From: Desulfoplanes formicivorans
Lineage (GTDB): Bacteria > Desulfobacterota > Desulfovibrionia > Desulfovibrionales > Desulfomicrobiaceae
Length of the DNA stretch: 62,254 nucleotides
Direction of reading: 5' to 3'
Assembly (NCBI RefSeq): GCF_001748225.1
Contig: NZ_BDFE01000022.1
Location: 1 to 62,254, forward strand
Notes under the pieces: model-generated
Seen by the model: only the letters and a program-made list of their open reading frames with translations
The model's database searches: none
Told to the model about the DNA's origin: nothing
Made by a program: the position numbers and the translations under genes
Part shown: positions 14,567 to 58,138 of the stretch, piece after piece
How the letters are laid out: each line of letters opens with the position of its first letter
Numbering within the stretch: the stretch's first letter is position 1

Positions 14567-15430
14567 TCAGGCAAAGACAAGACAGGCCCAGTCCCCCCGG
14601 GTCATGACAGAGGGAGTGTCCAGGCCCTGATCCTCATAGGCTGCCAGTACCCGGGCTAACTGCGATTGGAGCAGTCCCGAAAGAACCAGACATCCTCCAG
14701 ACCGCAGCCGAGCGGTCAGGGCCGGGGCAAGGCTTATCAGAGGAGCAGCCAGGATATTGGCCAGAATCAGGTCGAACCCGGAGTCGGCTTGCACACAGTC
14801 AATGGTGCCCACAAAGGCGGAAAATGCCGGCCCCACATGATTGAGCACCTTGTTTTCGTGGATGTTTTCAAGGGTCAGGGGATCAAGATCAAACCCAAGC
14901 CCTGTCAAACCAAGCTTGGTGCAGGCAATGCCCAAAATGCCCGAACCGGTTCCGGCATCCAGAAACCGGTCCCCCTCCTGTATCCTGCCCGAGGCATGAA
15001 GATCAACAAGGGCTTCCAGACACAGGCTTGTGGTGGCGTGATGTCCCGTGCCAAAGGCCATCTGCGGGTTGATGACAAGGGGCTCAAGGCCGTCATTGAT
15101 GGGTTCAGCCCAGGGAGGCTGCACCCGAAAGCGATGGGCAATGTCGATCTGGGTGAAAAAACGTTTCCACGCGCTGGCCCATTGCTCCTTTTTCACCCCG
15201 CCTGTTTGGGGCTCGATTTCCGGCCAGCGGGCCGTCAGGGTCTGCAAAAGATGCGTGGCGTCCAGGGGATTTTCAAAATAAAGATAAAACGTACGCTGGG
15301 TAGCCGAGGCACCCCCTGCTTCCTGCCAGCCATGGGGGCAATGGGTGACCAGAAGCGGAGTAACCTCTTCCACCAGGGACTCGGGCAGGGTAAACCCGAC
15401 CATATGCAGTTGTTGGGTATCAGTTTCCAC
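14567..15430 (-). CDS. prmA: Ribosomal protein L11 methyltransferase
   Basis: A SAM-dependent methyltransferase of about 287 residues that methylates ribosomal protein L11. The N-terminal substrate-binding domain contains the Trp-rich stretch EQWASAWKRFFTQ, and the catalytic domain has FGTGHHATTSLCLEAL, FLDAGTGSGILGIAC (SAM motif I) and the acceptor-loop equivalent LILANILAAPL. The start is uncertain: GTG at 15430 overlaps the end of the ABC permease by 11 bases with an AGG before it; ATG at 15403 has no clear ribosome site. The position after an amino-acid importer operon probably reflects readthrough rather than a shared function. Confidence 0.92.
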   Translation of the reverse strand: METDTQQLHMVGFTLPESLVEEVTPLLVTHCPHGWQEAGGASATQRTFYLYFENPLDATHLLQTLTARWPEIEPQTGGVKKEQWASAWKRFFTQIDIAHRFRVQPPWAEPINDGLEPLVINPQMAFGTGHHATTSLCLEALVDLHASGRIQEGDRFLDAGTGSGILGIACTKLGLTGLGFDLDPLTLENIHENKVLNHVGPAFSAFVGTIDCVQADSGFDLILANILAAPLISLAPALTARLRSGGCLVLSGLLQSQLARVLAAYEDQGLDTPSVMTRGDWACLVFA

Positions 15431-16115
15431 GGGCCTGGTATTTGGCGAGCTGACGTTCCAGCCGCCTGCTGGTTGCGGTGAGCACGTAACAGATGATGAA
15501 ATAAAGAACCGCAATGGTGATGAAAATCTCCGTAGGAGCGATCAGTGTGCGGTTGTTCACCTGGGTGGCCGTGCGGGTGAGTTCGTTGACCCCGATGATG
15601 TAGGCTAGGGAGGTATCCTTGGTCAGGCTCACGAACTGGTTCACAAAGGACGGGATCATGTTCCGCAGGGACTGGGGCAGGATGATGTGGACCATGGTCT
15701 GGAAATGGGAAAGTCCGGTTCCCCGGGCCGCCTCGGTTTGTCCCTTGGGCAGGGCCAAAACCCCGGCCCTAACGATCTCGGCGATATAGGCCCCGGTAAA
15801 CACGATAAATGCGATGAGGGCGCTGGTGGCCTCGGGCAGGGTATGCCCAAGGACAATGGGAGCCAGGAAATAGAACCAGAAAATGACCATGAGAAGCGGT
15901 GTACCGCGGACGATCTCGATATACACCACAGCCGGCCACTTGATCCATTTTTTCCGGGAAAGACGCATCAGACCGAAGAGAAGGCCCAGCCAGAAAGCAC
16001 CGAATATGCCTCCAAGGGCCAGGAGGATGGACATGGCCAAACCGCCCAGCGGCCCCTCGGGATAGGCCCCGATGAGAAAATAATCGAAATTATTCCAGAC
16101 AATATCCCAATTCAA
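15420..16115 (-). CDS. Polar amino-acid ABC importer permease (GltK-like)
   Basis: An inner-membrane permease subunit of 231 residues of the His/Glu/Gln family. It has five or so hydrophobic helices and the cytoplasmic EAA loop EAARGTGLSHFQTMVHIILPQ that contacts the ATPase. IEIVRGTPLLMVIFWFYF near residue 85 is the usual family motif. It is the last transporter gene of the operon read from 18633 down to 15420 and most resembles the C-terminal half of the fused permease at 56054-57841 (both carry KDTSLAYIIGV). Confidence 0.93.
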   Translation of the reverse strand: MNWDIVWNNFDYFLIGAYPEGPLGGLAMSILLALGGIFGAFWLGLLFGLMRLSRKKWIKWPAVVYIEIVRGTPLLMVIFWFYFLAPIVLGHTLPEATSALIAFIVFTGAYIAEIVRAGVLALPKGQTEAARGTGLSHFQTMVHIILPQSLRNMIPSFVNQFVSLTKDTSLAYIIGVNELTRTATQVNNRTLIAPTEIFITIAVLYFIICYVLTATSRRLERQLAKYQARGN

Positions 16116-16180
16116 AACTGTTTCCTTTTGCTAAAAAATCTTGAAAAATGACGGATGCGACGCAAAAAGTCCCCTGCCCA

Positions 16181-16882
16181 TCAATAGTGCATGGAACGCA
16201 AAACCTTTTTGTCGTATACATTCATGCACACGGAAACCACCAGGGAAATCATGATGTACAGACAGGTGGAAATGGTGAACGCCTCGAACCCGTGAAAGGT
16301 GTAGGATTCGATCTGTCGGGCCATGTAGGTGAGTTCTGCCACGCCAATGGTCATGACCAAAGACGAGTTCTTGATGATGTTCAGACACTGGGAAATAAGG
16401 GGGGGAATGATGATCCTGAAGGCCTGGGGCAGGATGACATAGCCCATGGACTGAAGAAAACTGAGACCTGCGGCTCGGGATGCCTCCAGCTGGGTCTTGG
16501 GAATGGAAAAAATGCCCGAGCGGATCTCTTCGGCCACAAAGGCCGAGGAATACACGGTCAGGGAAATGACCCCGGCCCAGAACTCGAAATCCTGGGCATA
16601 GAGCCACTCGTTGACCGAGGTGGGAAGCACGGCTTCGGACCCGAAATACCAGAAAAAAATCTGAACCAGAAGCGGGGTGTTTCTGAAAAATTCCGTATAG
16701 GCCATGCTGATCCATTCCAGGGGTTTGACCTTGGAAAGGCGGAACACGGCAATGACCGTGCCCAGAAAAATGGCCAGCACAATGGAGACGGCCGAGATCT
16801 CAAGGGTGGTGACAAACCCTTCCCTGAGCCACTGGGCGTACTCCCCGCTCATGACAAGATGCCAGTCGAATTGGTAGTTCAA
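16181..16882 (-). CDS. Polar amino-acid ABC importer permease (GltJ-like)
   Basis: The second 233-residue permease subunit of this importer. Family motifs are YTEFFRNTPLLVQIFFWYFG and the EAA loop EASRAAGLSFLQSMGYVILPQ. The heterodimer with the 15420-16115 product would form the channel. It resembles the N-terminal half of the fused permease in the second importer (shared FFRNTPLLVQ, FWYF and KNSSLxMxxGVAEL). It is separated from the binding-protein gene by a spacer with two hairpins. Confidence 0.93.
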   Translation of the reverse strand: MNYQFDWHLVMSGEYAQWLREGFVTTLEISAVSIVLAIFLGTVIAVFRLSKVKPLEWISMAYTEFFRNTPLLVQIFFWYFGSEAVLPTSVNEWLYAQDFEFWAGVISLTVYSSAFVAEEIRSGIFSIPKTQLEASRAAGLSFLQSMGYVILPQAFRIIIPPLISQCLNIIKNSSLVMTIGVAELTYMARQIESYTFHGFEAFTISTCLYIMISLVVSVCMNVYDKKVLRSMHY

Positions 16883-16928
16883 CGTTTTGCTCGTTTTGCT
16901 TCGTGTGTGTGGATGATGAAGACCATGG

Positions 16929-17004
16929 CCCCGGACAATCGGCCGATCAATGATCAGCCAGGGCGTCCGGGGTCATGAAGGAATGTGCCGGAGAGCCCGG
17001 CACA
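16929..17004 (-). other. Two intercistronic hairpins after the binding-protein gene
   Basis: CCCCGGAC (16929-16936) pairs with GTCCGGGG (16965-16972), and TGTGCCGG (16984-16991) pairs with CCGGCACA (16997-17004). Neither has a downstream T-run on the minus strand. Hairpins here commonly protect the binding-protein part of the mRNA and lower expression of the permeases; that role is inferred. Confidence 0.6.
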
Positions 17005-17021
17005 GATGATCATTGTATCTG

Positions 17022-17849
17022 CTAGTAGGGCCAGATCTCCATTTTCCAGTTCAAGGGGAGATAGTATTTGGAATCAGGACCAAACCATTTGTTGTAAATC
17101 TTCTGGTATTCCCCTGAATTCCACAGGTCCACCAGGGTTCTGTTGACCAGATCGCGAAAATCCGAATCATTTTCAGGAAGACCAAGCCCATAGGGTTCGG
17201 GAGAGATGAAATCGCCGGCAATCACATAATCCTCGGGATTGGGGGCGCTGTTTTTGAGACCAAGAAGGATGGTGGAGTCGGTGGTGACAGCCGCAACCTT
17301 GCCCTGACGCAGGGCCAGAAAAGCCTGGGGATAGCCTTCGAAAGAGAGAACCTTGCACTTGGGCTGGGCCTGCTTGATGTTCTTTTCCGAGGTGGAACCC
17401 TTGGCAGTCCCGACCTTTTTACCAGCCAGGTCGGCCACGCTCGTGATGCCGCTGTCCTTTTTGACCAGGATCTTCTGACCGTCCATGAAATAGGTGATGG
17501 AAAAGTCGATGCTGTCTTCACGGGCGAACTTGTGGGTCATGGTGGCAGCGGCCAGATCAATGGATCCCTGGGTCAGCATGGGGATGCGGGTGGCCGATGT
17601 CACGGGTTTGAGTTTCAGTTCCACGCCCAGCTTCTGGGCAATGGCCCGGCAGATGTCCACGTCAAAACCCACCAGCTGGTTGGTATCTGGATCAACAAAC
17701 CCAAAGGGAACAACAGCGTCCTTGACCCCGGCAATGAGTGCACCGCGCTGTTTGATCTTTTCGATGTTGCCGGCATTGGCGCTGGCCATGAAAACGCCCA
17801 GCATGAGCACAAGAGCCAAAACACATGTTTTTTTCCAATTGCTACCCAT
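17022..17849 (-). CDS. Periplasmic polar amino-acid-binding protein of an ABC importer
   Basis: A 275-residue family-3 solute-binding protein with a signal peptide (KKTCVLALVLMLGVFMASANA, described in parts: basic KK, hydrophobic core, cut after ANA). Ligand-binding features are GFDVDICRAIAQKLG, the Arg in TSATRIPMLTQGSID and FSITYFMDGQKILVKK. GGAGG lies ahead of ATG at 17849, which was chosen over an in-frame start 12 bases upstream. Substrate is probably Glu, Gln, Asp or a similar amino acid. It is clearly paralogous to the protein at 54724-55548: both share STILLG, EPYGxGLPENDS and a C-terminus ending in E-(I/M)-W-P. Confidence 0.94.
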   Translation of the reverse strand: MGSNWKKTCVLALVLMLGVFMASANAGNIEKIKQRGALIAGVKDAVVPFGFVDPDTNQLVGFDVDICRAIAQKLGVELKLKPVTSATRIPMLTQGSIDLAAATMTHKFAREDSIDFSITYFMDGQKILVKKDSGITSVADLAGKKVGTAKGSTSEKNIKQAQPKCKVLSFEGYPQAFLALRQGKVAAVTTDSTILLGLKNSAPNPEDYVIAGDFISPEPYGLGLPENDSDFRDLVNRTLVDLWNSGEYQKIYNKWFGPDSKYYLPLNWKMEIWPY

Positions 17850-17904
17850 ACGTTCCTCCATAGTTGTTGATGTGCTGGTTGGTATGACGAAAATGAATTG
17901 CGGG

Positions 17905-18633
17905 CTAGAGAATCTCCTTTAAAAAGGCTTTGGTGCGGTCGTGTTGCGGATTGGTGAAAAAATGCTCCGGGGTCCCCTGCTCCAGGATCTCACCGCCATC
18001 CATGAAAATGACCCGATCAGCCACCTCGCGGGCAAAGCTCATTTCATGGGTCACGCAGAGCATGGTCATGCCTTCCCGGGCCAGATCCTTCATGACATTG
18101 AGCACCTCGTTGATCATTTCCGGGTCCAGGGCCGAGGTGGGCTCGTCAAAGAGCATGACCTTGGGCTTCATGGCCAGGGCCCGGGCAATGGCCACACGCT
18201 GCTGCTGACCACCCGACAGTTCCACGGGATATTTGTGGGCCTGATCGCTGATACCCACCCGATCGAGCAGTTCCAGTGCCGTGGCCTCGGCCTCGGCCTT
18301 GGAAACCCCCTTGACCTTGATGGGCGCCAGGGTAACGTTTTTGAGAACCGAAATGTGCGGGTACAGATTGAACTGCTGGAAAACGATACCGATTTCCGAA
18401 CGCAAATGGTTCAGGTTGACCGTCTTCTGGGTGATGTCCTTGCCTTCCATGTAGATGGCGCCCTTGTCGATCTCTTCAAGACGATTCACGCACCGAACCA
18501 TGGTGCTCTTGCCGGAGCCGCTCGGACCACAGATGACGAGCACATCCCCTTTTTCAACTTCTTCATTGATGTTCTTGAGGACATGGAAATCCCCATACCA
18601 TTTGTGAACGTTGCGAAATTCTATCATTGCCAT
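17905..18633 (-). CDS. ATPase of a polar amino-acid ABC importer (GlnQ-like)
   Basis: A cytoplasmic ABC ATPase of 242 residues. Walker A is GPSGSGKST (residues 36-44), the signature is [15 protein letters not shown], Walker B is [15 protein letters not shown] and the switch His is in VTHEMSFA. It is first in the operon ATPase, binding protein, permease, permease (minus strand), preceded by a 231-base gap after argD that should carry the promoter. It shares most of its sequence with the ATPase at 53757-54485, so the two importers arose by duplication or belong to one paralogous family. Confidence 0.95.
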
Positions 18634-50833: not shown

Positions 50834-52036
50834 TCATCCCAGATAAGCGTCCACAGCCCGCTTGAAAGCCTCGCCCGAACGGACAATGACATCTTCCGGT
50901 ACGCAAAAGGCGAGCCTGAACCCGCCAGGAAATCCGAATCCCGAGCCGGGCACGGCCAGAATGTTTTCTTTCATGAGGGCGTTGACAAATCCGGTGTCGT
51001 CCAGACTGCCGCCAGGAACCCGGGGAAAGAAATAAAAAGCGCCTTTGGGCATGACATAAGAAATTCGGGCGTCATCCAGAACCTTGGCCATGGCGCTTCG
51101 CCGTTTGTCGTACACCCCAAGGTCCACGCCCTGTCCCAGGGCCCGACCCAGCAGCTTCTGGCCGATGGCCGGAGCGTTGACAAATCCCAGAATCCGATTG
51201 GTCAGAATGAGCCCGCCCACCAGAGTTGATACATCTTCCATGGCCGGGTTGACAGCAACATATCCCACACGCTCTCCGGCAAGGGAGAGACTTTTGGAAA
51301 AGGAACCGACAACAACACTGTGAGTATACCTGGGAAGCACCGGAGGAACCACTTCATTGTCGTAGACAAGGAACCGGTAGGGTTCATCCGAGACAAGATA
51401 GACCGGACGCCCCACCTTGCGGGTATGGGCCTTGAGAAGAGTTGCCAGACGGTCGAGTTCTTCCCGGGAATACACCTGACCGGTGGGATTGTTGGGCGAA
51501 TTGATCAGTACGGCCCGAGTCTTTTCGCACAAGGCCGCACCAATGCCTTCAAGGTCGAGCCCAAAGGTGGAGCTGTCACAGGCAACCGGTTTGAGCGTGC
51601 CCCCATGATTTGCCACATAAAACCCATACTCAACAAAATAGGGTGCCGGGCAGATCACCTCATCGCCCGGCTCGAGCACGGCCTTGAACAATGCGTTCAG
51701 TCCTCCGGCTGCCCCGCAGGTCAGCACAATGTGGTCGGGACCAAGCTCGGGACACTCCTGTTCCCTGGCAAGATGAGCAGCAAGGGTTTGGCGAACGTCC
51801 AGGTAGCCGGCATTGGGCATATAGCCAAAGGCAAAGGGAGAAGCAGCCTGATCGGCAATATGGCGCAATCCGTCGGCAACGGCCTTGGGAGGCGCCAGGT
51901 CCGGATTGCCCAGGCTGAAATCATAAACATTATCCTGGCCGTATTGCTGCTTCAGAACAATCCCTGCCTCGAACATCTTCCGTATCCAGGAAGAATGCTC
52001 GATATAATTGGCTACCTGCTTTGACAACGTGCGCAT
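50834..52036 (-). CDS. Class I/II pyridoxal-phosphate aminotransferase
   Basis: A 400-residue fold-type I aminotransferase. Conserved pieces are VYDFSLGNPDLAPPKAVADGL, LTCGAAGGLNALFKAVLEPGDEVICPAPYF, INSPNNPTGQVYSREEL, YLVSDEPYRFLVYD and the PLP lysine in VVGSFSKSLSLAGERVGYV. This is the AspC/DapL-like subgroup; substrate (aspartate, alanine, aromatic or other) cannot be decided from sequence. AAGGAG lies before ATG at 52036; an in-frame extension to 52387 overlaps repeat copy C and was rejected. Confidence 0.9.
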   Translation of the reverse strand: MRTLSKQVANYIEHSSWIRKMFEAGIVLKQQYGQDNVYDFSLGNPDLAPPKAVADGLRHIADQAASPFAFGYMPNAGYLDVRQTLAAHLAREQECPELGPDHIVLTCGAAGGLNALFKAVLEPGDEVICPAPYFVEYGFYVANHGGTLKPVACDSSTFGLDLEGIGAALCEKTRAVLINSPNNPTGQVYSREELDRLATLLKAHTRKVGRPVYLVSDEPYRFLVYDNEVVPPVLPRYTHSVVVGSFSKSLSLAGERVGYVAVNPAMEDVSTLVGGLILTNRILGFVNAPAIGQKLLGRALGQGVDLGVYDKRRSAMAKVLDDARISYVMPKGAFYFFPRVPGGSLDDTGFVNALMKENILAVPGSGFGFPGGFRLAFCVPEDVIVRSGEAFKRAVDAYLG

Positions 52037-52110
52037 GCAAACTCCTTTGCAAATGATATGGAATATATATGATTCAGATGGAAAACTGCAAAATAATAAG
52101 GGGACCGAGT

Positions 52111-52148
52111 CCTGCGCCCTGCGCACTGCGTACTGCGCACTTCCGTAC
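52111..52148 (-). repeat. Copy C (partial) of a dispersed intergenic repeat
   Basis: The stretch CCTGCGCCCTGCGCACTGCG followed by TACTGCGCAC matches the last block of copy B (20374-20447); shared near-words are GCGCACTGCGTACT and TACTGCGCACT. The central CTTCGCGGTT block is missing. It lies between the divergent-looking ends of the aminotransferase start and the sigma-54 regulator stop. Confidence 0.6.
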
Positions 52149-52157
52149 CTTCCCCCG

Positions 52158-53561
52158 CTATTCGATCTCCAGCCCCTGCTTGCGGTACTCGTTGAGCTTG
52201 TTCCGAAGGGTGCGTACCGAGATGCCCAAAAGCCTGGAGGCCTGGGTCCTGTTGCCAGCGGTCTGATCAAGACTGCGCAGGATGAGTCGTCGCTCCATTT
52301 CCTGCAAGGTGACCACGCCATCGCTTCCGGCCATGATCGCGTCCGACCCGTCTGTTTCAGCACGCTGCTGGTTTGCGGCAGGAACATCCATGGTTTCGTC
52401 CAAAGGCCACTCCTCGCCTTCCAGAAGAAAATGGCACGGTCTCACAGGCCCGCCTGCAGCCAGCAACACGGCCCGTTCCATAAGATTTTGCAACTCACGA
52501 ACATTGCCCGGCCAGGGATATTCCATGAGCCAGGATGCGGCCTCCGGGGCGAACCCGGACGGGGTAAAACCGTATTCCCGGCAATATTTTTTGAGAAAAA
52601 ACTCCCCAAGGGCCATGATATCCTGGCCCCGTTCCCGCAAGGGGGGAAGCTTCAAGGGGATGACATTCAATCTGTAATAAAGGTCCTGACGAAATTCCTT
52701 GTTGCGGACACTTTCCTCGATATCCCTATTGGTCGTGGCCAAAACCCGCACATCAACCCTGATGGTTTCGGTTCCCCCGACCCGATCGATTTCCCCTTCC
52801 TGGAGAACCCGCAAGAGTTTGGCCTGCAGGCCGATATCCATTTCGGAAATCTCGTCCAGCAGCAGGGTTCCTCCGTGAGCCAGCTCAAATTTGCCCGGCT
52901 TTTTCTGAATGGCCCCGGTAAAGGCCCCCTTTTCATGACCAAACAATTCGGACTCGAGCAGATGTTCGGGCAGGGCCGCGCAGTTCACGGCAACAAACGG
53001 CCGGTCGCGCCTGTCCGAAGCCTCGTGCAGGTACCGGGCAAACATTTCCTTGCCGGTTCCGGATTCGCCGGAAATGAGGACCGCGGCTCTGGAAGGCGCC
53101 ACCTGACGGGCCAGGGCAAGAACACGACGAATGGCCGGATGAGAGCCGATGATCTTTCGGGCTGGAAGGGCGGGAGTGCGTGAACCCCCGGCCGGGGAAG
53201 AAGGCTGGGGACCAGCAGGAAACATGGCCAGCACCTTTTCCCTGTCTGGCGGCGTGGACCAATAGTCGGTGGCGCCGGCCTCCAGGGCTTTGTGAGCATC
53301 TTCCACCGAGCCTTTGCGGGCAAACACTATAATCTTGAGATTACCCCTGTCCCGGGGCATAGATGCAAGGAGCCTGAAGGTATCGCACGTGCCAAGGCCC
53401 TGCTCGATGAACATCACGCAAGGCCTTGCGTTGCGCAAAGCCTTGAGGGCCGCGTCCTGATCTTCGGCCATGAGCACGGAAATCCCCTGCTCCTTGAGCA
53501 CGGAAAAAACCGGAGTGACGTACTCCGGACGCGAGACAAACAGAACATGCTTGGCAGACAT
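52158..53561 (-). CDS. Sigma-54-dependent regulator with a degenerate receiver domain
   Basis: A bacterial enhancer-binding protein of 467 residues. Residues 1-115 have a receiver fold (KHVLFVSRPEYVTPVFSVLKEQG, EQGLGTCDTFRLL, ATDYWSTP) but lack the acidic pocket (Ser-Arg-Pro-Glu), and Glu53 stands where the phospho-Asp should be; the conserved Lys is Thr. The AAA+ domain (about 140-375) is complete: GESGTGKE (Walker A), ELFGHEKGAFTGA (sigma-54 contact), LLLDEISEMD and NVIPLKLPPLRERGQDI. A Fis-type helix-turn-helix ends it (RTQASRLLGISVRTLRNKL). Domain order matches FlrC/NtrC regulators. It runs divergently from the second ABC importer, which it may control. Starts at 53573 are also possible; ribosome sites are weak. 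Confidence 0.92.
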   Translation of the reverse strand: MSAKHVLFVSRPEYVTPVFSVLKEQGISVLMAEDQDAALKALRNARPCVMFIEQGLGTCDTFRLLASMPRDRGNLKIIVFARKGSVEDAHKALEAGATDYWSTPPDREKVLAMFPAGPQPSSPAGGSRTPALPARKIIGSHPAIRRVLALARQVAPSRAAVLISGESGTGKEMFARYLHEASDRRDRPFVAVNCAALPEHLLESELFGHEKGAFTGAIQKKPGKFELAHGGTLLLDEISEMDIGLQAKLLRVLQEGEIDRVGGTETIRVDVRVLATTNRDIEESVRNKEFRQDLYYRLNVIPLKLPPLRERGQDIMALGEFFLKKYCREYGFTPSGFAPEAASWLMEYPWPGNVRELQNLMERAVLLAAGGPVRPCHFLLEGEEWPLDETMDVPAANQQRAETDGSDAIMAGSDGVVTLQEMERRLILRSLDQTAGNRTQASRLLGISVRTLRNKLNEYRKQGLEIE

Positions 53562-53756
53562 AACAAGAGCCATTATCCACAAAGGGCATGCTTGGCAATA
53601 TCAGGGTATCACCCTTGCTCTTGCCCATACAGACGGATTCTGCTATGAACTCGTATCTTTTTTTCAACTGCAAGCATAGTCACTTCTCCTTCCACTTCCG
53701 AATCGGCCTTCCGCCATCACGGGGAAACCGAAGCATCAACCCAAAGCGATTTCAAC
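53562..53756. other. Divergent control region between the sigma-54 regulator and ABC ATPase
   Basis: About 195 bases. It contains an inverted repeat AGGGT-ATC-ACCCT at 53603-53615, a possible operator. I looked for a sigma-54 -24/-12 (GG-N10-GC) and found none that fits on either strand. No -35/-10 pair could be assigned with confidence. Confidence 0.35.
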
Positions 53757-54485
53757 TTGATAGACATACGACACATCCACAAATGGTACGGCGACCACCA
53801 TGCCCTCAAGGATGTCTCCCTGAGGGTGGACAAGGGCGAGGTCTTTGTCATCTGCGGTCCCAGCGGATCAGGCAAGAGCACGCTCATCAGGTGCATCAAC
53901 CGTCTTGAACCCATCCAAAAGGGCACCATCATGGTAGACGGCGCTGATCTGTATGCCGAAGACCTGAATCTGACCCTGCTTCGGGCGGAAATCGGGTTTG
54001 TTTTCCAGCAGTTCAACCTCTATCCCCACATGACCGTACTCGAGAACATCACCCTGGCTCCGACCATGGTTCGCAAAATGGACAAGAAGGAAGCCAGGGA
54101 GATCGCCATGGACCTGCTGGGCAAAGTCAACATCCCGGACAAGGCTGACGCCTATCCCGGTCAGCTCTCGGGCGGGCAACAGCAGCGCGTGGCCATTGCC
54201 CGCGGCCTGGCCATGCAACCCAAGATCATGCTTTTTGACGAGCCCACATCGGCCTTGGACCCGGAAATGATTAACGAGGTTCTTGATGTCATGAAAACCC
54301 TGGCCAAAGAGGGCATGACCATGCTCTGCGTAACCCATGAAATGGGATTTGCCCGGGAAGTGGCCGACCAGGTCGTGTTCATGGATGAGGGAACGCTCAT
54401 TGAGCAGGATACGCCGGAACGGTTTTTTTCCAACCCCCAAAGCGATCGCGCCCAGGATTTCCTCAATAAGATCATCTCCCATTGA
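53757..54485 (+). CDS. ATPase of a second polar amino-acid ABC importer
   Basis: A 242-residue ABC ATPase of the GlnQ type: Walker [10 protein letters not shown] (residues 34-42), signature [15 protein letters not shown], Walker [16 protein letters not shown] and His in VTHEMGFA. A TTG start at 53757 is used since no ATG precedes the family start and the first coding residues IDIRHIHKWYG match the paralogue at 17905-18633 ([11 protein letters not shown]). No convincing ribosome site is visible, so the exact start is open. Followed 238 bases later by its binding protein. Confidence 0.93.
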   Translation: MIDIRHIHKWYGDHHALKDVSLRVDKGEVFVICGPSGSGKSTLIRCINRLEPIQKGTIMVDGADLYAEDLNLTLLRAEIGFVFQQFNLYPHMTVLENITLAPTMVRKMDKKEAREIAMDLLGKVNIPDKADAYPGQLSGGQQQRVAIARGLAMQPKIMLFDEPTSALDPEMINEVLDVMKTLAKEGMTMLCVTHEMGFAREVADQVVFMDEGTLIEQDTPERFFSNPQSDRAQDFLNKIISH

Positions 54486-54517
54486 CGCATGTCTGACAGA
54501 TGGGTCAAAACTTGCAT

Positions 54518-54540
54518 AGACTGGCCCGTGCCGGGCCCAG
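54518..54540 (+). other. GC-rich hairpin between ATPase and binding-protein genes
   Basis: CTGGCCCG (54521-54528) and CGGGCCCAG (54532-54540) pair with one bulge. It stands 36 bases after the ATPase stop and lacks a T-run; it may weaken readthrough so that the binding protein depends on its own promoter. Confidence 0.4.
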
Positions 54541-54607
54541 ACTGTACACCGGATGCAAGTCTCGCCAGCGTTTCCGGGAAAGGACAAGGGAGAACCAGTT
54601 AACACAT

Positions 54608-54637
54608 TTGCAAGAAATCTCTTGGCTTGTGTACAAT
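54608..54637 (+). promoter_or_regulatory. Possible sigma-70 promoter for the binding-protein gene
   Basis: TTGCAA (54608-54613) and TACAAT (54632-54637) are 18 bases apart, giving a four-of-six -35 and a five-of-six -10. The ATG of the binding protein is 86 bases further, with an AAGGAGATG ribosome site. Confidence 0.4.
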
Positions 54638-54723
54638 TATGTTCATATCGGCCCGCTTTCGTGGAAAACCCGGTTTTCGGGAAACATAGCAAACTGTTTC
54701 ACTCTCAACCAAGGAGATGCACG

Positions 54724-55548
54724 ATGCGTAGTCTGAAGATCCTCACCCTTGTTGCGGCCATGTTCTTGTGCGCCCAGATGTCCTTTGCCGGAACGACCTA
54801 CGACAAGGTCATGAAAGCCAAGGTCATCCGTGCCGGAATCATGACCAATTCCATTCCCGGCGCGTACTACGACGCCGACAACAACTGGGTCGGTTTTGAC
54901 GTGGATATCGCCCAGGAAATCGCCAACCGCCTGGGTTGCAAGCTCGACCGGGTCAAGGTGACCGACAAGACCAGAATCTCCTTTTTGCAGCAGGGCCGGA
55001 TCGACATGTCCGTGGCCAACATGACCCACAAACGTGAACGTGACAAATCCATTGACTTTTCCATCACCTATTTCTTTGACGGTCAGAAAGTTCTGGCCAA
55101 GAAAGGCAAATTCAAGAGCCTGAAAGACATGGTCGGCCAGAAAATCGCCACCACCCAGGGCACCACATCCGAGATCAACATCAGAAACCTGCTCAAGGAA
55201 CTGGGCGATCCCAATCCCAACGCCCATGTCAAATCCTTTCCCGACTACGCCTCTGCCTTTGCCGCTCTGCAGATGGGCAGCGTTGCCGGTTTCACCACCG
55301 ATTCCACCATCCTTCTTGGCTACGCAGCCAAGGAACCCGGCAAGTACGAACTGGTTGGCGATTTCTTCAGCAACGAGCCCTACGGTATTGGTCTGCCTGA
55401 AAACGATTCCAAATGGCGCGACACCATCAACTTCACCATCCAGGACATGTGGAAGGACGGCACCTACATGAAGATTTACAACAAGTGGTACGGTCCCGAC
55501 ACACCGTACGCCTTCCCCATGACCGAAGAAATCGAAATGTGGCCGTAA
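54724..55548 (+). CDS. Periplasmic polar amino-acid-binding protein of the second importer
   Basis: A 274-residue family-3 binding protein. Signal peptide with RSLKILTLVAAMFLCAQMSFA and a cut after SFA. Ligand-binding features: AYYDADNNWVGFDVDIAQEIA, KTRISFLQQGRIDMS and FSITYFFDGQKVLAKKG. Start ATG at 54724 follows AAGGAGATGCACG; an upstream in-frame extension lacks a signal-like N-terminus. Paralogue of 17022-17849 with shared TTDSTILLG, EPYG(I/L)GLPENDS and the C-terminal EMWP. A hairpin follows the stop. Confidence 0.94.
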   Translation: MRSLKILTLVAAMFLCAQMSFAGTTYDKVMKAKVIRAGIMTNSIPGAYYDADNNWVGFDVDIAQEIANRLGCKLDRVKVTDKTRISFLQQGRIDMSVANMTHKRERDKSIDFSITYFFDGQKVLAKKGKFKSLKDMVGQKIATTQGTTSEINIRNLLKELGDPNPNAHVKSFPDYASAFAALQMGSVAGFTTDSTILLGYAAKEPGKYELVGDFFSNEPYGIGLPENDSKWRDTINFTIQDMWKDGTYMKIYNKWYGPDTPYAFPMTEEIEMWP

Positions 55549-55571
55549 GATCATGAAATAGTCCCATGACA

Positions 55572-55610
55572 AACTCCGGCAGCTTGAAATGAGTTCGGGC
55601 TGCCGGAGTT
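55572..55610 (+). terminator. Hairpin after the binding-protein gene
   Basis: AACTCCGGCAGC (55572-55583) and GCTGCCGGAGTT (55599-55610) form a perfect 12-bp stem with a 15-base loop. ATTGTTGG after it is a weak T-tract. It may end or attenuate transcription so that the permease is made at a lower level; the analogous position in the first importer also has hairpins. Confidence 0.7.
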
Positions 55611-55685
55611 ATTGTTGGAGGCAATGACTCAAAATGCAGCGAGTCAAAACATTGCGAATATGATCGTTGTGTTCTGAGTGACTGA

Positions 55686-55730
55686 GGGAAGAGTGCCGGA
55701 TTGACAACAGGGGAAATCAGCCATGATGAG
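55686..55730 (+). pseudogene. Possible remnant of an IS4-type transposase N-terminus
   Basis: The frame reads GLTTGEISHDEVQHV and then meets a stop. I recall the string GEISHD(K/R/E)(I/V)TRFL from IS4-family transposases, but only about ten residues fit and both neighbours are broken by stops. Treat as a pointer for a translated search. Confidence 0.2.
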
Positions 55731-56053
55731 GTACAACACGTTTGACGCGTTGTCTGGCCGACCAAAAATGAGCATTCCAGCGTGCTAGCAATCGGATCAA
55801 CACGCCGATTTGGGGCAAAGATGAAACCTCGGCCCACCGAACTTCCCGGCTTTCCGATTTTGTCATAGTCCATATCGCCAGGGGCTTGAAAACGGCTTTG
55901 CCAAGACATGCAGATTCATGAAGGGCCAGCTCGCAGCAAAGAATTCGCTGTCATCTTTTTTCTTTGTCGAACAAGAGAATCCGCCGACCTTTTCACATTC
56001 CTTGAATTTCTTAGCTTTTTCAAATCTCTAAAATTTTAAAATCCTAAAAAATT

Positions 56054-57841
56054 ATGTTTCGTTACTGGCTTGAAAAAACCTGGGTCCAATACCTCCTTTT
56101 GTTCACCCTTCTTGGGGCCATGGTCTATTATTGGGGCTTTGTGTTCAATTTCGGCTATGATTTCCATTGGGACGTCTTGTACACGCCCAATGAAACCTAC
56201 GGCATGATTTTTGGCATCGAGCTCTTCAAGGGGCTGTGGACAACACTCAAGATCACCCTGATCAGTTCGGGCATTGCCCTGTTTCTCGGGACCCTGTTTG
56301 GCCTGGGACGCCTTTCCGCCTTCAAGCCCTTTTACATCTTTTCTTCCTCGTATGTAGAGTTCTTCCGCAACACCCCGCTGCTGGTTCAACTTTTTTTCTG
56401 GTATTTTGCCCTGCCCATGGGTCTTCCCGAGGCCTGGCGGGAATGGGTCTTTGAACACAATTTCGAATTCTGGTCCGCGACCATCGGACTGTCCGTGTAT
56501 ACGGGCGCGTTCATGGCCGAGGTTATTCGGGCCGGCATGCAGTCCATCCCCAAAGGACTTCTGGAAGCCGCTTATTCCTCGGGACTCACGTATTTCCAGG
56601 CCCTTCGGACGATCATCCTTCCCCTGGCCTTTCGGGCGATCATCCCCCCCCTTGGCAGCGAATTCCTGAACAACATGAAAAACTCCTCCCTGGCCATGGT
56701 CGTTGGTGTGGCCGAACTCTGCTGGCAGTCCCAGCAGGTGGAATCCCTGACATTCAGGGGGTTTGAAGCAACAACAGCCGCAAGTGCCCTTTATCTTGGT
56801 CTTTCCCTGGGCATTTCCGCCATTTTGAACACGGTCAACCTGCGTCTTCGCATCAATGATGGGCATACCCGCAAAAAGGGTTTGGCCATTTTTTTCGGCA
56901 ACATCCTGTTCTGGCCTTTTGAAAAGCTCTGGAGTGTGCTGGCCTTTTCCGCCGGCGTCATGGGCAAACGCAGAACCGGTCTGACGTATACCGGGACCAT
57001 GCTCGTCTGGAAAAAAGCGCGCACCCTGCTGGTCAAAGGCATCATCCTTGCGGGAAAATGGAGTTTTATCGCCTTTTTGGCATTTTTGCTCTACGAACTT
57101 GTTCTGGGGCTGAGTCATTTCAAATGGTCGGTTATCCGGGACAACCTGCACGCCCTGCTCATATGGAAATTTCCCAGCAACGACCCCAACGACGTGCTCT
57201 GGGGCATTGGCGGTCTTTCCGCTTCCATTGCCATGGCGGTCATTTCCATTTCAGTGAGCTTTTTTATCGGTCTGTTCGTTGGCCTGGGACGAGTCTCCAA
57301 AAATGTCGTCTTCAGAATCCCCTGTACCCTGTACATTGAAATCATCAGGGGCAATCCTCTCATCCTGGTCATTTTCTGGGTTTACTTTTTCATCCCCATC
57401 TTTATCAAATCCTATTTGGACGTGTTCTGGTCCGCCACCATTGCCCTGACCATCTTTACAGGAGCGTATCTGGCGGAAATCGTACGCGCGGGCATCCAGA
57501 ACATCCCCAGGGGACAGATAGAAGCGGCCTACGGCACGGGGCTGAGCTACGCATCCACCATGATCCACATCGTCCTGCCCCAGGCCCTCAAGCAGATGAT
57601 CCCTGCCATTGTGGGCCAGTTCATTGCCATCTTCAAGGACACCTCCCTGGCCTATATCATCGGTGTCCTGGAGTTGACCTTTGTGGCCCAGGGCCTTAAC
57701 AGCCGACTCATGATCTACCCCTTTGAAATCTACGCCACGGTCGCCGCCCTCTATTTCGCCTGCTGCTACTCCATGAGCATTGTAGCCAACCGGCTGGAAA
57801 GAAAACTCACGCCCGGAGGGGATGCGAGGATGGTTATGTAG
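56054..57841 (+). CDS. Fused double permease of a polar amino-acid ABC importer
   Basis: A 595-residue protein holding two complete HisM-type permeases in one chain. The N-terminal half has FFRNTPLLVQLFFWYFALP and an EAA loop, EAAYSSGLTYFQALRTIILP (about residues 175-195). The C-terminal half begins after a 100-residue linker with extra hydrophobic segments and has IEIIRGNPLILVIFWVYFF and a second EAA loop, EAAYGTGLSYASTMIHIVLPQ, about residues 495-515. In the first importer the same two subunits are separate genes (16181-16882 and 15420-16115). No frameshift or stop interrupts the join. No ribosome site precedes the ATG, and 505 bases separate it from the binding-protein gene. Confidence 0.93.
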   Translation: MFRYWLEKTWVQYLLLFTLLGAMVYYWGFVFNFGYDFHWDVLYTPNETYGMIFGIELFKGLWTTLKITLISSGIALFLGTLFGLGRLSAFKPFYIFSSSYVEFFRNTPLLVQLFFWYFALPMGLPEAWREWVFEHNFEFWSATIGLSVYTGAFMAEVIRAGMQSIPKGLLEAAYSSGLTYFQALRTIILPLAFRAIIPPLGSEFLNNMKNSSLAMVVGVAELCWQSQQVESLTFRGFEATTAASALYLGLSLGISAILNTVNLRLRINDGHTRKKGLAIFFGNILFWPFEKLWSVLAFSAGVMGKRRTGLTYTGTMLVWKKARTLLVKGIILAGKWSFIAFLAFLLYELVLGLSHFKWSVIRDNLHALLIWKFPSNDPNDVLWGIGGLSASIAMAVISISVSFFIGLFVGLGRVSKNVVFRIPCTLYIEIIRGNPLILVIFWVYFFIPIFIKSYLDVFWSATIALTIFTGAYLAEIVRAGIQNIPRGQIEAAYGTGLSYASTMIHIVLPQALKQMIPAIVGQFIAIFKDTSLAYIIGVLELTFVAQGLNSRLMIYPFEIYATVAALYFACCYSMSIVANRLERKLTPGGDARMVM

Positions 57842-58138
57842 GGGCGGCAGGTCTTCAGGGCGCAAACGAGAACATACGGGATAATGCGTCATCTTTTGGT
57901 GAAACAAATTGCTATTCTTTTCTTGTGAATGCGTTTCCACGCAACAATGAAAAATGAAGAATTCTACATGAATCAGACGACTACACTTATTTAAATTTGC
58001 AGAAAACTGACTGCCACGCACGGAATGTGTTCAGCCGTATCACTTTTCACACATCAACATGCAGCGATTCCCGGTCCCCTTGCAGACGAGAATCGCTGTT
58101 CAAGTTATGGGCACATCGGTTCGGGAGTCATAACAACA
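57842..58138. other. Spacer between the ABC permease and the LPS genes
   Basis: These 297 bases contain no convincing gene. A hairpin CAGCGATTC (58062-58070) with GAATCGCTG (58090-58098) lies 40 bases ahead of the first glycosyltransferase; it could act in transcription of the glycan genes but has no JUMPstart-like sequence. Confidence 0.4.

Follow-up and report, generated by a model that had tools for sequence, protein, structure and literature searches.

The closest described relatives of the locus presented here are the ABC uptake porters of the polar amino acid type (PAAT, TC 3.A.1.3), with permeases of the GlnP/HisQM/ArtQ type such as 4yms. A 2013 survey of ABC uptake porters reported PAAT members with 5, 6, 8, 9, 10 and 11 predicted spans; 12 spans were not listed (PMC3654945). 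Proteins of 12 spans are known from the ferric systems, where they were formed from two 6-span units, as in FutB (PMC3654945). In the literature, we found no paper describing a fused permease in the polar amino acid family, and homologues are probably kept in the databases under generic permease names. Here we analyse such a permease from Desulfoplanes formicivorans. It is encoded in a stretch of 62,254 nucleotides (contig NZ_BDFE01000022.1), referred to as the window in this text.

The fused permease gene is an open reading frame of 595 aa at 56054–57841 (+) with an ATG start. Its leader (56000–56053) is very A+T rich, and a clear Shine-Dalgarno site is absent there. The Pfam domain BPD_transp_1 and the NCBIfam domain HEQRo_perm_3TM are each found twice in the protein. 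An N-terminal core of five spans (residues 53–266, 56210–56851 (+)) carries a BPD_transp_1 match at residues 76–266 and matches 4yms in fold, and a C-terminal core, also of five spans (residues 387–587, 57212–57814 (+)), holds the second matches to both domains at residues 387–479. Each half contains one EAA motif. The first EAA loop spans residues 171–190 (56564–56623 (+)) and bears a positive loop charge, the second spans residues 490–509 (57521–57580 (+)), and E171, G177, P190, E490, G496 and P509 are invariant in all 49 fused homologues compared. The continuous frame, the doubled domain matches and the invariant EAA residues confirm what an earlier reading of the nucleotide letters alone (the sequence-only reading) had claimed, namely that both permeases lie in one 595-residue chain with two EAA loops. 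Judged by its sequence, this ORF is a genuine fusion of two permease subunits, A followed by B.

The operon has the order ATPase, binding protein, fused permease. The ATPase gene (53757–54485 (+)) is of the GlnQ/HisP type (NCBIfam GlnQ, 328 bits); its product is 65.8% identical to the ATPase of an unfused system in the window, and the gene holds the same place in homologous loci with this region in view. The gene for the family 3 substrate-binding protein (54724–55548 (+), SBP_bac_3) likely starts at ATG 54724, preceded by an AAGGAG site, and encodes a protein with 49% identity to SBP1 of the unfused system. The locus thus has what is expected of a PAAT type I importer: the permease domains BPD_transp_1 and HEQRo (two each), one EAA loop per permease, and an operon that also encodes a GlnQ-type ATPase and a binding protein of family 3. 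In the gap between the binding-protein and permease genes we noticed a stable hairpin (55568–55612 (+); 101-nt fold of -37.2 kcal/mol, z -3.9). Comparable hairpins of differing sequence occupy this gap at 59 of the 78 fused loci and at 21 of the 27 unfused ones, in a comparison whose ATPase-gap control rested on 6 usable loci. By analogy with other ABC operons, the hairpin probably sets a higher level of the binding protein. No RNA families were found at 52000–58100. Upstream, 50834–53582 (-) on the opposite strand encodes a sigma-54 type regulator, which is divergent from the operon, and a PLP aminotransferase that scores above the cutoff of the PRK06836 family. A search for a sigma-54 promoter near the operon gave pattern matches across the window at chance level, no more.

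We scanned for fused homologues using one genome per species and obtained 70 loci; the majority encode a fused protein close to full length, at 53–85% identity. They derive from Desulfovibrionaceae, Desulfoplanes, Desulfonatronovibrio, Halodesulfovibrio, Pseudodesulfovibrio, Desulfobulbaceae, Desulfocapsaceae and Syntrophales-type MAGs, and the fused permease was seen across Desulfovibrionales, Desulfobulbales and Syntrophales-type genomes. Within Desulfovibrionales, the order of the window, 84 of the 247 genomes sampled carry the fused form (hand count; a contig end truncates one gene). Among 297 genomes drawn from the whole phylum, three from outside the order hold the complete fused form. 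No fused form was detected in 349 genomes of Pseudomonadota (the phylum of locus L073) at E 1e-45, nor in a search of plasmids. The fused gene nearly always follows the same two genes, one for the ATPase and then one for the binding protein, and does so at every locus whose upstream region is in view. The protein is 587–603 residues long; an insert of about 28 residues near residue 134 of the N half extends it to 623 in one group of genomes (L138, L139 and L140, of the same order). A survey of Desulfobacterota, suggested as a check by the sequence-only reading, thus showed the fusion to be widespread in sulfate-reducing bacteria and their relatives, where it is old.

An AlphaFold2 model built on 49 fused homologues had a mean pLDDT of 83.6 and a pTM of 0.83, with weaker regions around residues 541–549, near 270 and near 310. 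Its N half aligned with 4yms at Z 19.9 and rmsd 2.1 over 214 residues (34% identity). The AlphaFold2 helices and the family-averaged hydropathy agree on the order of spans. An extra N-terminal span, TM0 (residues 12–30, 56087–56143 (+); model helix 9–30, family hydropathy peak 1.79), is followed by the five spans of the first core, the cytoplasmic part of the linker, a linker span, TM0' (residues 333–353, 57050–57112 (+); model helix 314–355, family-averaged hydropathy peak 2.10 at 333–349), and again five core spans. In the family data, loop charges alternate throughout, net positive on the cytoplasmic and net negative on the periplasmic side, and the pattern, which holds for all 13 loops, agrees with 12 spans and cytoplasmic N- and C-termini. 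We infer a 12-helix protein whose termini and EAA loops all lie in the cytoplasm; the predicted topology bears out the cytoplasmic location of the EAA loops that had been expected from the letters.

The linker (residues 267–386, 56852–57211 (+)) comprises a basic cytoplasmic stretch with a helix at residues 277–303, the span at 333–353 and a periplasmic segment. It had been described as a 100-residue linker adding hydrophobic segments, of which one proved to be a real membrane span and the other an amphipathic helix. Each half would then consist of a TM0 and five core spans. The N core would end in the cytoplasm and the basic linker would stay inside, with helix 277–303 probably lying on the membrane surface, until span 333–353 carries the chain out, so that the C core begins on the periplasmic side. 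According to sequence and model, the leading span in the linker would thus allow the C core to follow a cytoplasmic end, which suggests a reason for having such a span in each half: it lets the second core insert into the membrane in the correct orientation. The unfused A and B permeases are without a leading span, and their short starting tail is predicted to lie outside.

The hydrophobic stretches within helix 277–303 (FFGNILFWPF..LWSVLAF) could be taken for a thirteenth span, which would give another topology. However, family-averaged 19-residue hydropathy there is at most 1.3, the region 263–332 is strongly basic (12.9 K+R against 3.9 D+E), and the second EAA loop would end up outside, making this very improbable. 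One could also question the reading frame itself and take it for an artefact of sequencing or assembly, or for a read-through ORF in decay, since the window comes from a single draft genome and frameshifts occur in two homologous loci. Yet more than 90 near-full-length fused ORFs of 587–623 aa run through the linker in independent assemblies, including finished chromosomes, and dN/dS against the closest relative is 0.04–0.20 in all regions. The independent homologues rule out an artefact, and we give it practically no credence. The linker is under purifying selection by this measure: its dN/dS is 0.20 when set against the closest relative and 0.38 in the comparison with another genus of the family, while the cores have values of 0.04–0.11. 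Its length is 114–124 residues in 49 aligned fused homologues. This selection and the constant length make a stop or frameshift in the window most unlikely, and none was found in the linker, where the sequence-only reading had placed the decisive counter-evidence. As to the two frameshifted loci (L063:2805–2860 and L072:6651), the genes are otherwise well conserved, and the frameshifts may be assembly errors or decay. The cytoplasmic stretch of the linker is the least conserved part, with 34% column identity against 76–77% in the cores, as might be expected if the chain were made fused and then cut there, leaving two separate permeases in the working complex. But the length is nearly constant and the span is retained in the family average, and we consider such cleavage improbable. 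The uninterrupted chain of 12 spans remains our preferred reading. Somewhat less remote, though still unlikely, is a role beyond tethering for the cytoplasmic linker with its conserved length, which would use its surface helix and basic charge to sense the membrane or ionic state or to trans-inhibit the importer. If true, Desulfobacterota would possess a regulated amino-acid permease in a single chain that is peculiar to them.

The unfused importer in the window (15420–18633 (-)) lies about 38 kb from the fused one and has the same gene order: ATPase (17905–18633 (-), GlnQ 348 bits), binding protein (17022–17861 (-), SBP_bac_3), permease A (16181–16882 (-)) and permease B (15420–16115 (-)). 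In this genome, its A and B genes are the best other matches to the fused permease. The N half is 48% identical to A and 40% to B, the C half 50% to B and 33% to A, which confirms that the first importer has the same subunit types as separate genes. It differs from the fused system in these separate genes, in the absence of TM0 and in forming a clade of its own. Its orthologues, permease B included, are separate genes at 20 of the 20 loci of the order that we read. Open-frame lengths of 470–497 aa had hinted at a second, independent fusion in the unfused lineage, an idea that these 20 loci dispelled.

The sequence-only reading held that the fusion arose next to this unfused paralogue, and proposed a phylogeny of both halves against the separate subunits. 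In an IQ-TREE phylogeny of 97 permease sequences, every fused N half falls into one clade and every fused C half into another (100/99 each). In both halves, the same deep split sets Desulfovibrionales plus Desulfobulbales apart from a second group, consistent with a single fusion event. The fused N halves have the unfused A proteins as their sister group (94/89). Holding the fused C halves and the unfused B proteins together costs 7.6 log units (p-AU 0.298) and is neither supported nor rejected. A recent fusion in this lineage, made from the unfused importer of the window or by copying it, would agree with the subunit types and gene order common to both systems, with the sister position of N half and unfused A, and with a MAG (Thermodesulfobacteriota Prado116, L058:2–7465) in which fused and unfused importers adjoin. 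However, fused halves from across the phylum fall into single clades, AU tests reject placing the window's half with its own unfused subunit (N half, p-AU 5.4e-7; C half, 1.3e-44), and fused genes occur in 84 of the 247 genomes of the order. The AU tests and the distribution rule out a local origin, which we regard as extremely improbable. Among about 60 fused loci, L058 is the one with adjacent systems; this arrangement may go back to a tandem duplication or be due to chance. The separate clades, the AU rejection and the separate unfused orthologues at all 20 loci argue that the window holds two old paralogous systems and not a fusion event. By their phylogeny, the fused and unfused systems are separate old lineages, each extending across the order or the phylum, and their co-occurrence in the window is no evidence for a local origin. 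The fusion would have been a single event in an A/B system related to, but distinct from, the unfused one of the window, and would predate either the divergence of the sampled Desulfobacterota lineages or transfer between them.

Taken as a whole, the locus very probably encodes a polar-amino-acid type I importer with A and B permeases in one 12-span chain that goes back to a single ancient fusion. Both cytoplasmic EAA loops would dock on an ATPase homodimer, and the binding protein would deliver the substrate to the fused permease. The fusion would guarantee a 1:1 A–B pair and exclude A–A and B–B dimers. Of the earlier claim that the fusion fixes subunit order and stoichiometry, the order stands (A–B, as in the unfused genes), while the stoichiometry is most naturally read as 1:1, with the heterodimer contained in one chain. 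The nearest solved relatives of the binding protein are the reconstructed AncQR, the glutamate-binding 5eyf (E 2.5e-41), two reconstructed ancestral proteins and 2ia4/2vha, all of them distant, with no PDB match above about 154 bits. A 'TRI' arginine is present in the binding proteins of both importers, as in the glutamate-type 5eyf and 2ia4; that of the fused system's binding protein is absent from AncQR. In 2vha, this position contacts the acidic ligand. These residues incline us slightly towards an acidic amino acid as substrate. In L144, L059 and other Pseudodesulfovibrio-type loci (about seven), the fused operon has an L-serine dehydratase-like gene (identified by eye) immediately upstream, a possible hint that substrates there are of the serine type.

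Each half of the fused protein is a complete member of the PAAT permeases, alike in EAA loop, partner genes and fold. In contrast to these permeases, two different subunits are joined in one chain here, and an extra span precedes each core. A plasmid-borne importer of Deinococcus psychrotolerans (L151) has an unfused A with a TM0 and a B with a long N-terminal extension, and represents an unfused system carrying the extra spans that a fusion requires. However, its genes are separate, and the tree does not make it the sister of the fused clade. The ferric permeases FutB/FbpB (TC 3.A.1.10; 9j4r) likewise contain both type I halves in a single 12-span chain. The whole model aligned with the ferric permease chain of 9j4r (FbpBC) at Z 20.7 over 430 residues (model range 35–585). 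Yet they belong to an iron system, identity in the fold alignment is 14%, and 9j4r was not matched in a PDB search at E 1e-3. The fused permease thus works like FbpB/FutB but is not a member of that family, and the two fusions presumably had separate origins. It is a variant of a familiar transporter, and its natural single-chain A–B pair should be convenient for structures and for half-specific mutations. Permease fusion has occurred in the polar amino acid family, as it has in the ferric-iron importers.
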